IMG/VR virus record: IMGVR_UViG_3300035181_001685
Location: 1 to 34,281 of that record
Origin: a virus
Direction: 5' to 3' (one strand)
DNA length: 34,281 nt
Part shown: positions 2,910-17,930 of the stretch, in pieces
Layout: each line of letters starts with the position of its first letter
Numbering within the stretch: the stretch's first letter is position 1
Notes under the pieces: generated by a model
What the model was told of the DNA's origin: nothing
The model's database searches: none
Seen by the model: the letters and a program-made list of their open reading frames with translations, nothing else
Made by a program: the position numbers and the translations under genes

Positions 2910-2949
2910 AAATAAAGCCGTAAAATGTTATGTTTTACGGCTTTTATTT
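2910..2949 (+). terminator. Rho-independent terminator after the sheath gene
   Basis: Arms of 16 nt (2910-2925 and 2933-2949, one extra T in the right arm) carry the core AAGCCGTAAAA/TTTTACGGCTT around a 7-nt loop. T-rich sequence is on the right and A-rich on the left, so it could work on both strands. Confidence 0.85.
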
Positions 2950-3002
2950 ACAATATCATTTTGGTTATAAGTAATATTGTTAAGTTTAATAGGAACCCAA
3001 AA

Positions 3003-3494
3003 ATGATTGAATGCTTAATTTGTAACCGAGCTTTTGAAAAGATGATCTCAAGTACTCACTTGAAGACACATGGAATAACTTCTAAGCAATATAAAGAACA
3101 ATTTCCTGGTGCTTCTCTCGTGTCTGAAGAAGAAAAGCTAAGAGCGTCTGAACATGCGAAGAGAATTAATGTAAAAGGTATAAAACGAGATCCAGCTATT
3201 GGATGTAAACAATCTGAAACAAAGAAGAGAAAATTTGCATTAGGAGAGCTTCAAGCTTGTAATAAAGGGTTGGAGATGTCAGAAGAACAAGGAATGATTG
3301 GAAAATTACATTCTGAAGAAACTAAAATTGGAATTTCAGAAACAATGAAATCTAAAAGAGATTCAATTCGAGCTGTAATGGAAGATATTCAAGCTGTAAT
3401 TGAAGATAAAGGTAGATGGATCCCATTTGATCAACTTGATGACTTTTCATTAATACTAACCATCAAAAGGAATGATTGGAAAATTACATTCTGA
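3003..3494 (+). CDS. Degenerate homing endonuclease, N-terminal part
   Basis: The start at 3003 is preferred because upstream in-frame ATGs lie in the terminator hairpin. The 163-residue product begins with a C2H2-like MucR/Ros-type finger (CLICNRAF ... HLKTHG) often found at the front of phage GIY-YIG and HNH endonucleases. A NUMOD-like basic stretch follows (NKGLEMSEEQ, KLHSEETKIGISETMK). The expected catalytic domain is missing: after GRWIPFDQLDDFS the frame runs into a duplicated segment and stops. HNH-type remnants (AVWFETNQN ... YDVTKRGRN) occur in another frame from 3617. This is probably a dead endonuclease; the small zinc protein may still be made. Confidence 0.55.
   Translation: MIECLICNRAFEKMISSTHLKTHGITSKQYKEQFPGASLVSEEEKLRASEHAKRINVKGIKRDPAIGCKQSETKKRKFALGELQACNKGLEMSEEQGMIGKLHSEETKIGISETMKSKRDSIRAVMEDIQAVIEDKGRWIPFDQLDDFSLILTIKRNDWKITF
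3291..3450 (+). repeat. Tandem duplication, copy 1 (160 bp)
   Basis: From GGAATGATTGG to GACTTTTCAT this copy matches 3469-3607 with a few substitutions. It carries one extra 21-bp unit (AGCTGTAAT-GAAGAT type), so there is a smaller tandem repeat inside the larger one. Confidence 0.9.
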
Positions 3495-3607
3495 AGAAAC
3501 TAAAATTAGAATTTCAGCAACAATAAAATCTAAAAGAGATTCAATTCGAGCTGTAATGGAAGCTAAAGGTAGATGGATCCCATTTGATCAACTTGACGAC
3601 TTTTCAT
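3469..3607 (+). repeat. Tandem duplication, copy 2 (139 bp)
   Basis: This is the second copy of 3291-3450, lacking the internal 21-bp unit. The duplication moves the rest of the endonuclease into a different frame and so explains the loss of the C-terminal domain. Confidence 0.9.
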
Positions 3608-3616
3608 TCTATAAAT

Positions 3617-3983
3617 GAGCAGTCTGGTTTGAAACAAATCAAAATTTGCACTTAATTCCTGAGTATGACGTGACTAAACGTGGCCGAAATCAACTTGATA
3701 CTAAAAGCCCAGCAAAAGTACTTGGTACTATCATTAATGGAGTATTTGAAAAGATAGACGAGTTTCATTATGATGCTATAATATTTGCTGCTGCAAATAA
3801 CATAGAAAACCGCATGTCATTTTACAATAAACTTGCAGACCGATTCAAAAAACGCTTTTCAAGAGTGATTACTGACGTAAAAAGTAAAATGGTAAGTTTA
3901 CAGTGTTGATTACCAATACTGTTAAGAAATCATATATTGATGATTTTGTAGAGCACTTAAAGATGACTTCAAATAAACAATGA
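3617..3983 (+). pseudogene. Chimeric remnant: endonuclease piece joined to a broken copy of the next gene
   Basis: After a TGA at 3614-3616 the frame reads AVWFETNQNLHLIPEYDVTK, which resembles the lead-in of phage HNH endonucleases. From about 3700 it becomes KVLGTIINGVFEKIDEFHYD, clearly homologous to KVLGAVINGVSKKIEEYHAD in the gene at 3992-4495. A frameshift near 3895-3900 moves the remaining homology (TVLITNTVKKSYIDDFVEHL) to another frame that ends at TGA 3981-3983, overlapping the ATG at 3980. The N-terminal half of the paralogue is missing. A TTG at 3646 could start an 87-residue product, but there is no good ribosome site, so I treat it as debris. Confidence 0.6.
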
Positions 3984-3991
3984 GAAAGTCT

Positions 3992-4495
3992 ATGAAATTA
4001 AACGAAATATTTGATTCAACCATAAAATTAAACTGGAAACAAGAGTCAAAAGATCTAACGTTTGCTGAGTTTGAAGTAGACAATATTCAATATGAGTGTT
4101 TTATTGAAGCTGGAACATATGAGTTCGAAGGACATGAACTTTCTTTCTTAAACACAGGTTTTTCTAGAGTCAGTGGAAGTGATAAAATATTTGACTTAAC
4201 GTTAGAAACAAAAGATTCTATTAAAGTGTTGGGTGCAGTGATAAATGGAGTTTCTAAAAAGATAGAAGAGTATCATGCTGATGCTGTGATGTTAAGTGCT
4301 GTAGATAACGTTGAAAAACGAATGAGAATTTATCAATGGATTGCAAGAAAGTTCTCTACTAAGTTTGGAATTTGGATAAAATCAATTACAGTTCCTAACG
4401 GTAAAGTAACACTTCTAATTAGTTCAAAGTTAGATAAAGCTTTAATTAATAAATTTGAAGAGCATGTAAAGCAACAAAACATTAAGAAATTGTAA
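3992..4495 (+). CDS. Unknown protein with capsid-targeting-like N-terminus and a widespread phage C-terminal domain
   Basis: I do not recognise a function. I prefer the ATG at 3992 (MKLNEIFDS) to the one at 3980 because it gives the N-terminal peptide shared by many proteins in this window; GAGAAAG just upstream can act as a ribosome site. The C-terminal half, KVLGAVINGVSKKIEEYHAD then a polar stretch and VEKRMRIYQWIARKF, shares its pattern (KV-F/L...V, I-EY, hydrophobic-x-(S/T)A, R-x-R-x-Y) with the protein at 24235-24729 and with the broken copy just upstream. That domain may have a GNAT-like alpha/beta fold, but this is a guess. The closing helix (LDKALINKFEEHVKQQ) is charged. Confidence 0.7.
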   Translation: MKLNEIFDSTIKLNWKQESKDLTFAEFEVDNIQYECFIEAGTYEFEGHELSFLNTGFSRVSGSDKIFDLTLETKDSIKVLGAVINGVSKKIEEYHADAVMLSAVDNVEKRMRIYQWIARKFSTKFGIWIKSITVPNGKVTLLISSKLDKALINKFEEHVKQQNIKKL

Positions 4496-4500
4496 TTGTT

Positions 4501-4530
4501 GGTTACATTTCAATAGATCTATGATATAAT
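4501..4530 (+). promoter_or_regulatory. Possible early promoter (GGTTAC - 18 - TATAAT)
   Basis: GGTTAC at 4501-4506 and TATAAT at 4525-4530 are 18 nt apart; a second TATAAT lies at 4535-4540. The layout resembles T4 early promoters and sits 28 nt before the ATG at 4559. Confidence 0.5.
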
Positions 4531-4558
4531 TTATTATAATTCAAATAGAGCACCTATT

Positions 4559-5665
4559 ATGAAAATCCATGAAATCTTAACCGAAGAAACAGATGAAGTG
4601 AAAGACATGCTTCTAAAGCTTCGGAAAGATAGTACTGGTTTTCTAAATCCAGCTAAGCTCGTGAAGATCATCGCTACCCTTAAAGGTTGGTCTATTGAAA
4701 AACAAACGTTTGTATCAGATACCAATAAGATTGATATTGATGCTCAAAAAGAACTGGGTGGTTACCCTAACCTAAATTTCAGGGATGGACTGACTGTAGA
4801 TGGTAAAATTGACTGTTCATTTACTTTATTTGATAGCAACAAGTCAGGTAAGAATTACAGCGACTTGGTAGATAAAGCTTACACTGAAATGTCTTCCCTT
4901 GCAAAACATCCGATTCCAGCTAAGCCAAAATCTGGAACTTTTTACTTTTCTGATGTGACTGAACCTAAAATTGAAAAGGGTCATAGTTGGGAAACTTATG
5001 GTTTTAACTTCAAAGCTAAATACGCAAGCTCTGGTTTTTTGGTAACTGCACCGAACGGTAAGACATTTGAATTGAAAAAGGAACCTGGATATAATGGTAT
5101 TGAGATGGGTGGCTTCATTCGTTGGTATAAAACGGAAACGTCTTTTACTCAAGACGTCTTAGACGCTCTTGGTATGGAATCACATGAAACATCAAAACAG
5201 GTAGCTAGAACCCGTGAAAATACTGGTACATGTCCATGTTGCTTTAAAGAATACAAGCTTATTAGCAATAAGATGGTTCATCATGGTTATCAACGTCCTG
5301 GACATGGTTACATTGTAGGAGATTGCTTCGGTGTTGGTTACAAACCGTTCGAAAAATCTCCAGATGGAACTAAAGATTACAAGAAGGAACTTGAGAAACT
5401 TCTTACAAAAGAAGAAACTCACCTTAAAGCTCTTAAGAGCGGTAAAATAGTGCAGTTACATCATAGTACTAGCTTCCGTGGTATTAGGAAGGTTGAAATG
5501 ATTACCCAAACACATGAAGAGTGGGATAAAACTTTAAAGATTGCTATTACAAATTCTGAAACTCAAGTTAAGTATATCAAGCAGGATATTGGAACATTAG
5601 ACAAGAAGCTTGACGGTTGGAAAGAAGAAAATCTTCCTTGGGAACGGATCAATAAATCAAAGTGA
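4559..5665 (+). CDS. Zinc-binding-domain protein with capsid-targeting-like N-terminus
   Basis: The 368-residue protein starts MKIHEILTEE, matching the shared N-terminal peptide and offering an L-T-E/E cleavage site. The N-terminal half is an unrecognised alpha/beta region. Around residues 222-265 it has a metal-site-like motif: TGTCPCC, then MVHHGYQRPGHGYIVG and DCFGV. A C-x2-C pair followed by HHGYxRPG-x-G-x4-G-x-C occurs in phage and plasmid proteins of unknown role. A basic, coiled C-terminal tail (LLTKEETHLKALK ... IKQDIGTLDKKL) follows. The mix of an early-type promoter and a possible head-targeting peptide is unusual. No enzymatic activity can be assigned. Confidence 0.72.
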   Translation: MKIHEILTEETDEVKDMLLKLRKDSTGFLNPAKLVKIIATLKGWSIEKQTFVSDTNKIDIDAQKELGGYPNLNFRDGLTVDGKIDCSFTLFDSNKSGKNYSDLVDKAYTEMSSLAKHPIPAKPKSGTFYFSDVTEPKIEKGHSWETYGFNFKAKYASSGFLVTAPNGKTFELKKEPGYNGIEMGGFIRWYKTETSFTQDVLDALGMESHETSKQVARTRENTGTCPCCFKEYKLISNKMVHHGYQRPGHGYIVGDCFGVGYKPFEKSPDGTKDYKKELEKLLTKEETHLKALKSGKIVQLHHSTSFRGIRKVEMITQTHEEWDKTLKIAITNSETQVKYIKQDIGTLDKKLDGWKEENLPWERINKSK

Positions 5666-5679
5666 TAGGATCTTAGAAG

Positions 5680-5874
5680 ATGGGATATTCTTTAAGTGAA
5701 GGTAAGTCAATAGAAGAGTTAGAGATTGAATTAAGAGAAGTCTTTATTGATTATCCAGAATACTGTGCTCCAATTTATGGTCCTGGTTCGTTTGATGCTA
5801 TGGTTAAGAAATTTGCAAATGATAACTTTTTTAAGCTACACCTAGTAGCTAAAGCTTATTTAGAAAAATGCTAA
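5680..5874 (+). CDS. Small hypothetical protein, 64 residues
   Basis: The short acidic helical protein MGYSLSEGKSIEELEIELRE... follows the previous gene after 14 nt and overlaps the next start by 7 nt, which suggests translational coupling. It has no recognised domain. The repeated I-E-E-L-E-I-E-L pattern suggests an amphipathic helix. Same strand and tight spacing support it as a real gene. Confidence 0.55.
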   Translation: MGYSLSEGKSIEELEIELREVFIDYPEYCAPIYGPGSFDAMVKKFANDNFFKLHLVAKAYLEKC

Positions 5875-6053
5875 AAGAAATATTTTTGTTGATTATTCAT
5901 TCAATTCGTTTATGGTTTGAACCTAGCTCTTGTATAGAAGAAAAAAAGTGGCGCGTAAAGCGCCACGATAGGTATTCAATCCCAATGGCATATGACGTAG
6001 CATGTGATTACGCTAGGATGATTAACGGTACGATTGAAAGAGTTAAGAAGTAA
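5868..6053 (+). CDS. Small hypothetical protein, 61 residues
   Basis: It starts inside the end of the preceding gene and has a hydrophobic N-terminus (MLKEIFLLIIHSIRLWF) that might be a membrane helix. It ends YDVACDYARMINGTIERVKK, a small amphipathic segment common in tiny phage proteins. A strong GC-rich hairpin lies inside the frame at 5948-5966. The assignment rests on spacing and frame only. Confidence 0.45.
   Translation: MLKEIFLLIIHSIRLWFEPSSCIEEKKWRVKRHDRYSIPMAYDVACDYARMINGTIERVKK
5941..5966 (-). terminator. Minus-strand intrinsic terminator inside a plus-strand gene
   Basis: On the minus strand GTGGCGC - TTTAC - GCGCCAC is followed by seven T (plus-strand A-run 5941-5947). This is a strong 7-bp GC-rich terminator pointing left, and there is no obvious minus-strand gene feeding it. 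On the plus strand it lacks a T-tract. Confidence 0.5.
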
Positions 6054-6062
6054 TTCACTAAA

Positions 6063-6070
6063 GATAAATA
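6063..6070 (+). promoter_or_regulatory. Late promoter box GATAAATA
   Basis: This T4-late-type -10 box is 19 nt upstream of the ATG at 6090. Its predicted start site falls in the left arm of the hairpin at 6070-6089. Confidence 0.6.
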
Positions 6071-6089
6071 TGTCTTTAGGTAAAGACAT
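6070..6089 (+). promoter_or_regulatory. Hairpin covering the ribosome site of the PRTase-like gene
   Basis: ATGTCTTTA (6070-6078), a GG loop, and TAAAGACAT (6081-6089) form a perfect 9-bp inverted repeat that ends next to the ATG at 6090. The only plausible ribosome site (TAGGTAAAG) lies within it. A read-through transcript would hide the site. A late transcript starting around 6076-6078 would lack most of the left arm and leave it open. T4 genes such as e and soc use this arrangement to block early translation. Confidence 0.6.
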
Positions 6090-6887
6090 ATGAAAAAGAA
6101 TTTTAAGAAATTTTTAGATGAAGATATTACTATCAATGGTAAGTCTCTTCAAATTACAGTGTCTCACGATCCTACAACTTCTACCAAAGATCGAATTTCA
6201 ACTTACATCAAGCGTTTGCCTTACACCACAACTATCAAGGGGGTGTCAATAAAGATCTTTTCTTTATTGAACTACGTTTCATCTGATGATGTGACTGATA
6301 TGTTGACCTCAATTAAGGGAAAGGGTCCTTATGAACTTCATAAAAAGCAGTTTGAAGTTCTAATGAAACAGCTTCGTGACGGAACTGAAAAGATCTTAAA
6401 GCAGACAAGACCTGACGTTCTTGTTTATCCAAAATCAGGATCTCCTTTCTTAAAACAGTACATTGACTCGATTAGAAATCTTGATCCTGATCTAAAGATT
6501 ATTGATAATGCTTTCTTAAAGAAACAACTTGATGGTACTGAGATTGAACCCTTGATTAACACTTCTCACCCTGACTGGGAAAAGTTTGCAAGTGAAAATC
6601 CAAAAGAAGTAGTAAAGCTAAAACGTTCTATAGCAACAAACATCCACAATGGTGTGATTGAGCTCAAGAAACTGTATAAACCGTATGTAAAGTTTATCAA
6701 GAATTTTATTGAGATGCGTGATGCATATGAACTTCTTGACAGTGTTTTAGGAAAGAAAGTTATCGTAATTGATGACATCCTTTCTTCAGGTGCTACTATG
6801 GCTGAAATGGTTAGGCAGCTTGAAGAACTAGAACCTTCTGAAATTTATGGTCTGACAGTGTTTAAACATACAACTTCTCAAAAATAA
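6090..6887 (+). CDS. Phosphoribosyltransferase-like protein with capsid-targeting-like N-terminus
   Basis: The 265-residue product begins MKKNFKKFLDEDIT, matching the shared N-terminal peptide with an L-D-E/D site. Near the C-terminus (about 225-245) it has GKKVIVIDDILSSGATM, the PRPP-binding loop of type I phosphoribosyltransferases (hydrophobic strand, D-D, then S-S-G-x-T). The region before it contains PDVLVYPKSGSPF, which may be the second strand of the fold. Known PRTases make or salvage nucleotides; the substrate here cannot be told. A late promoter and a ribosome-site hairpin suggest late-only expression, which fits a virion protein better than a nucleotide-metabolism enzyme. Confidence 0.75.
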   Translation: MKKNFKKFLDEDITINGKSLQITVSHDPTTSTKDRISTYIKRLPYTTTIKGVSIKIFSLLNYVSSDDVTDMLTSIKGKGPYELHKKQFEVLMKQLRDGTEKILKQTRPDVLVYPKSGSPFLKQYIDSIRNLDPDLKIIDNAFLKKQLDGTEIEPLINTSHPDWEKFASENPKEVVKLKRSIATNIHNGVIELKKLYKPYVKFIKNFIEMRDAYELLDSVLGKKVIVIDDILSSGATMAEMVRQLEELEPSEIYGLTVFKHTTSQK

Positions 6888-11070: not shown

Positions 11071-11144
11071 GGGCCTGTAGCTCAGTTGGTTAGAGCAACC
11101 GACTCATAATCGGCAGGTCGGGGGTTCAAGTCCCTCCAGGCCCA
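11071..11144 (+). tRNA. tRNA with anticodon CAU (elongator Met or Ile2)
   Basis: The 74-nt cloverleaf has acceptor GGGCCTG/CAGGCCC, D-arm GCTC...GAGC with AGTTGGTTA loop, anticodon loop CTCATAA and T-arm GGGGG-TTCAAGT-CCCTC. CAU is read as Met, or as Ile (AUA) if lysidine-modified; an Ile2 role would suit an AT-rich phage, but the sequence alone does not settle it. The first anticodon-stem pair is A-C rather than a match. Only CC of the 3' CCA is encoded after discriminator A (11145-11146), so the end would need host CCA-adding enzyme. A TTGACA lies ~35 nt upstream without a convincing -10. Confidence 0.93.
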
Positions 11145-11163
11145 CCTTTATTAGGAATGCGGA

Positions 11164-17890: not shown

Positions 17891-17930
17891 ATCCGCTTAA
17901 CGTGAATTCACGTTAAGCGGATTTATTTTG
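17891..17930 (+). terminator. Rho-independent terminator after the tail tube gene
   Basis: A perfect 32-bp palindrome (16-nt arms, 17891-17922, core TAACGTGAATTCACGTTA) is followed by TTATTTTG. It is one of the strongest hairpins in the window. Confidence 0.88.

Follow-up and report, generated by a model that had tools for sequence, protein, structure and literature searches.

The start site of the phosphoribosyltransferase (PRTase)-like gene whose ATG lies at 6090 is probably a timing lock of the kind described for the e, soc and I-TevI genes of T4. Read-through RNA coming from an upstream early-type promoter would hold both arms of an inverted repeat and fold into a 10-bp hairpin, in which the spacer and the start codon are paired and 30S binding would be impaired. 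The 5′ arm shares bases with the late promoter GATAAATA, and an RNA initiated from this promoter would begin at about 6076, with the AGGU present and the AUG open for translation. The PRTase-like protein, probably late and head-packaged, would thereby be kept off early RNA.

The window, that is the whole stretch of DNA analysed here, comes from a jumbo myophage related to T4, of which it is a 34-kb fragment encoding a sheath, a tail tube, a gp17-type terminase, gp32 and a RecA/UvsX-like protein. Its terminase shares 38–39% identity with those of Xanthomonas phage XacN1 and of the Stenotrophomonas phages CM1 and RAS14, and 72% with that of the 345-kb IMG/VR contig G002; gene starts in G002 and in G014 were taken from a simple ORF rule. 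The product of the gene appears to fit the type I phosphoribosyltransferase fold. Indeed, PRTase-fold proteins make up nearly all of its top 50 PDB fold matches (best E 2e-3, for a model of pLDDT 68), and it carries a PRPP-binding motif, VIVIDDILSSGAT, whose core is conserved in the orthologues. No homologues were found in annotated phages or in GTDB genomes.

The octamer at 6063–6070 is very probably a gp55-type late promoter, because, with no prior motif, ATAAATA ranks first in enrichment among the 7-mers that precede genes, both in the window and in its relatives (G002, XacN1, RAS14, G014 and PA5oct) and in T4. Of the 12 ATAAATA sites on both strands of the window, eight fall wholly within the 9% of non-coding DNA (binomial p 2e-6), with a start on the same strand 26–46 nt downstream; a ninth shares bases with a stop codon. 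At all nine gene-boundary sites the base preceding the core is G, C or T, so that GATAAATA is ordinary in the window. The informative motif is the exact core ATAAATA in intergenic position only; TATAAATA with one mismatch gave no enrichment over shuffles (63 versus 70), and the reversed-pattern control is useless for a core that reads the same backwards. gp55 homologues were found by phmmer in all five jumbo phages, and the four compared with PHROGs, which are all but the G002 candidate, match late-sigma families; the gp55 evidence thus comes from relatives, the window's own record being a 34-kb fragment. Genome-wide motif statistics and these homologues together back the late promoter that a sequence-only reading had placed at this position. 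In T4 the late promoter motif occupies positions -13 to -6, and the predicted +1 therefore falls near 6076. The late start inside the 5′ arm of the hairpin, also part of that reading, follows from the T4 geometry, in which late promoters lie about one helical turn 5′ of the RNA start (PMC2988020).

Features of the PRTase-like gene start and of the region upstream (window coordinates)
Feature	Position	Strand	Basis or remark
Early/middle-type promoter GTTACA-17-TATAAT, TG before -10, upstream of gene 4559	4502..4530	+	Consensus match 10/12, extended -10
Three co-directional ORFs (4559-5665, 5680-5874, 5868-6053) between promoter and hairpin	4559..6053	+	ORF list
Alternative 5′ arm CTAAAGA, minor structure	6058..6064	+	RNA folding; pairs with 6073-6079 (UCUUUAG)
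Late promoter GATAAATA, gp55-type (very probable)	6063..6070	+	Motif statistics; predicted +1 ~6076 by T4 geometry (PMC2988020)
5′ arm of 11-bp inverted repeat	6068..6078	+	Mostly missing from predicted late RNA
SD-like AGGU, hairpin loop, 8 nt 5′ of ATG	6078..6081	+	Duplex energy with anti-SD -3.7 kcal/mol
3′ arm of inverted repeat	6081..6091	+	Spans spacer and AU of AUG
PRTase-like protein, 265 aa	6090..6887	+	Pfam PF00156, E 2.9e-8; PDB fold matches

The perfect inverted repeat that had been noticed at 6070–6089, with arms of 9 bp, is real, but its arms are 11 bp long: it reads ATATGTCTTTA-GG-TAAAGACATAT over 6068–6091 and includes the last three bases of GATAAATA. It had also been said to contain the ribosome site, which is correct, except that the AGGU, a weak SD-like sequence, stands unpaired in the loop while the stem pairs the spacer and the AU of the start codon. 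In RNA the A/U-rich stem has 10 bp rather than 11, because a 2-nt loop cannot close, and is capped by the tetraloop AGGU, with a folding energy of -8.3 kcal/mol at 37 °C and -11.0 at 25 °C. This is the only repeat of at least 8 bp at any gene start in the window. The window has 13 perfect repeats of at least 9 bp with loops no longer than 8, where Markov sequences have 2.05 ± 1.8; by a scaled estimate about 0.08 would be expected by chance in the DNA surrounding the 45 gene starts, about 1.3 kb in total. Elsewhere in the window, a 16-bp perfect palindrome, ATCCGCTTAACGTGAATTCACGTTAAGCGGAT, occupies 17891–17922; the tail tube gene flanks it on one side and, on the other, a DUF7487 gene with a late promoter of its own. 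The exact hairpin of the PRTase site was found in no other viral contig, and an Rfam scan gave no match at it, returning only a tRNA; a tRNA-Met (CAT) gene lies at 11071–11146.

Computed folding separates the two RNAs clearly. The hairpin has a predicted probability of 0.97–1.00 in RNA starting at 5991 or 6031, at 20–37 °C, and of 0 in RNA starting at 6074 or 6076, and the predicted probability that the AUG is paired falls from 0.70 in the read-through RNA to 0.08–0.28 in the late RNA at 37 °C. We expressed this difference as ΔΔG, obtained by subtracting the energy needed to open the start region of the late RNA from that needed for the read-through RNA. The PRTase gene has the highest value among the 8 late promoters of the window, 7.6 kcal/mol, with a shuffle p of 0.041 when only the upstream part is shuffled. 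Over the whole class, a ΔΔG of at least 5 kcal is reached by 26% of 210 late-promoter/gene pairs as against 9.7% of 2371 other genes (p 9e-11), and 33 of 204 late-promoter genes have a shuffle p of at most 0.05 where 10 would be expected (upstream part shuffled). As a positive control, the top five T4 genes are e, 49, I-TevI, I-TevII and segB, at a predicted 12–15 kcal/mol; the PRTase gene falls between these documented cases and those T4 genes for which no lock is known. T4 soc, at 2.2, goes undetected, so a low score does not exclude a lock. The effect on the late-promoter class is firm, and that at the single PRTase site is moderate.

The parallel drawn earlier with T4 is borne out both by the literature (PMC3014915, PMC2988022) and by this recovery of the known cases. 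T4 e, 49, I-TevI, I-TevII and segB are named as hairpin-controlled (PMC3014915 or PMC2988022). Like them and like Aeh1 mobE, the PRTase gene is predicted to have a read-through hairpin at the initiation region (PMC3014915, PMC2988022), with the late promoter within or adjoining the 5′ arm. However, those genes sequester the SD directly, whereas the PRTase hairpin leaves it in the loop; the hairpins of the five T4 genes, which the calculation covered, are also predicted to be stronger. Moreover, the known locks control endonucleases or lysozyme, and not a PRTase-like protein. The closer likeness in geometry is to soc, where the stem (CATGTAAT/ATTACATG) holds the start codon, the loop holds the SD, and part of the 5′ arm is missing from the late RNA. 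In soc the late promoter is upstream, whereas the PRTase promoter itself overlaps the 5′ arm, and the predicted PRTase leader is shorter (14 nt versus 24 by the same rule). Three traits of such a lock are found or predicted here: a late promoter of gp55 type (TATAAATA-like), immediately 5′ of the gene and in its sense orientation, a helix pairing the SD and/or the AUG in the read-through RNA (here, by prediction, the AUG and the spacer), and a late RNA predicted to lack the 5′ arm. Against it stand the modest energy test at the site, the A/U-rich stem, the unpaired SD, the lack of the hairpin in the orthologues and an early promoter that is a consensus match only. With a predicted lock of moderate strength (7.6 versus 12–15 kcal/mol), the proposal that the protein is made only from late RNA is an inference.

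Alternatively, the late promoter could be real and alone make the gene late, the hairpin being a weak A/U-rich fold that ribosomes open and that carries no regulatory weight. The shuffle p at the site is just 0.04, the SD is exposed in the loop and the hairpin is missing in the orthologues. We nevertheless regard this explanation as unlikely, since an 11-bp repeat was observed where perfect repeats of at least 9 bp at a gene start are expected only about 0.08 times in the window, since ΔΔG is enriched class-wide, and since soc, which shares the geometry, is listed as an inhibitory structure (PMC3014915).

The symmetry of the 24-bp palindrome is perfect and overlaps the promoter, and it could instead be a DNA operator for a dimeric protein controlling the late promoter, in the way I-TevI represses its own promoter (PMC2988022). 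This seems very improbable: the palindrome is single-copy in the window even with up to 3 mismatches allowed, the orthologous promoters have no such palindrome, and the gene product is PRTase-like, with no DNA-binding match among its domain matches. Still less credible is an attenuator or riboswitch-like choice, in which the middle arm would pair either with 6058–6064 or with 6081–6091. Both hairpins are computable, at -6.8 and -8.3 kcal/mol, and the former is preferred in a 61-nt fold; however, its probability is at most 0.02 once the RNA is extended to start at 5991 or 6031, there is neither an Rfam match nor a T-run terminator at the site, and both structures would impair initiation.

The timing lock would need a source of read-through RNA, and the promoter at 4502–4530 could supply it across 6063. 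This is the only intergenic TGnTATAAT on the + strand of the window, and its core is identical to the second enriched upstream motif of G002, TGTG(A/T)TATAAT, which is present at 27 genes and is probably an early/middle extended -10 promoter. A + strand terminator was looked for from there to 6063 and not found. On the minus strand, a strong terminator-like hairpin lies at 5948–5966 inside the small ORF 5868–6053, with no minus-strand gene nearby. In two of the orthologous loci, L018 and L042, the PRTase gene comes directly after the sheath gene and a terminator-like repeat, and the extra genes of the window (2925–6053) may have brought early read-through, and hence the hairpin. A 12-bp terminator-like repeat is also present 3′ of the window's sheath gene, at 2914–2944; it overlaps the listed ATG of ORF 2925–3494, the true start of which probably lies further inside the ORF.

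The PRTase-like protein begins with MKKNFKKFLDE, which is similar to the capsid targeting sequence of T4, MKTYQEFIAE, and fits the pattern MKxxxxF(I/L)xE, although this is a resemblance only. Such N-termini are found in 20% of the window genes, as compared to 1.3% of internal methionines, and are associated with late promoters across genomes (odds ratio 3.0, p 2e-5); the window by itself does not show this association (2 of 9). Nine window proteins begin in this MKxFKxFLxE-like manner (6090, 19939, 22661, 23086, 23490, 24229, 24730, 27084 and 27818) and are probably head-packaged, which suggests that the PRTase-like protein is late, packaged in the head and delivered with the DNA.

The hairpin was not found in the five PRTase orthologues (L017, L018, L019, L042 and L148); as it is missing in all those examined, no covariation can be demonstrated. 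In L018, L042 and L148 the late-promoter motif ends exactly 5 nt before the ATG and there is no SD. With the T4 spacing, this places +1 on the A of the AUG, and the late mRNAs of these genes are predicted to be leaderless. The promoter of the window gene ends 19 nt from the ATG, outside the 4–7 nt taken as the leaderless arrangement. Close relatives therefore seem to time the PRTase gene differently, with a late RNA beginning exactly at the start codon.

This arrangement extends to other genes. The motif-to-ATG distances in G002 are either 4–7 nt (10 genes) or at least 15 nt, with none in between. Promoters 4–7 nt before the ATG number 12 in XacN1, 6 in RAS14 (all at 5), 3 in G014, 1 in PA5oct and none in T4, which gives 32 genes in the five jumbo phages, one XacN1 gene being counted twice because of the terminal repeat. 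The excess is not seen with other 7-mers composed of these letters in G002, XacN1 and RAS14, the numbers in G014 and PA5oct being too small for this control. The SDs of the 4–7 nt genes are weak or missing: their median anti-SD energy in G002 is 0.5 kcal/mol versus -5.7 for the other late genes (p 2e-5), with smaller differences in XacN1 and RAS14. The arrangement is common to XacN1/RAS14 orthologues that align from residue 1, and the deposited gene starts match those used here in all 6 cases checked. Several GIY-YIG endonucleases and capsid-targeting-like proteins are encoded by these genes (L043–L060 in G002; XacN1, RAS14, G014, PA5oct). In a separate case, the apparent orthologues RAS14 208261 and XacN1 118455 (ATG positions) have a terminator-like hairpin, AAAGTTCCTCAATAAATAGGTTATTGAGGAACTTTTTTT, whose loop contains the late promoter, an arrangement in which the upstream RNA might be stopped while the late RNA starts inside the hairpin.

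In the 4–7 nt promoters of XacN1, RAS14 and G002, as in the proposed PRTase lock, the position of the late RNA end would decide translation, but with no hairpin, no SD and a predicted leaderless mRNA. We lean slightly towards the view that, in this branch of T4-related jumbo phages, two interchangeable devices serve one orthologous gene to keep a late protein off early RNA: either the start site folds into a hairpin that is opened when transcription begins within it, or a gp55 promoter gives a leaderless late mRNA while the read-through RNA lacks an SD. We found no description of leaderless late mRNAs from gp55 promoters in the literature searched. In AR9, a different jumbo phage, leaders are 26–491 nt long, although according to its authors leaderless transcripts are frequent in phages (PMC5312081).

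In conclusion, the proposed lock would mean that a timing device known from T4 textbooks also operates in uncultured jumbo phages, and the opening-energy approach offers a general, calibrated way of finding such locks. From the comparison of orthologues, leaderless mRNAs are also predicted to arise from gp55 promoters in this clade and, if this is true, these mRNAs would constitute a distinct regulatory class.
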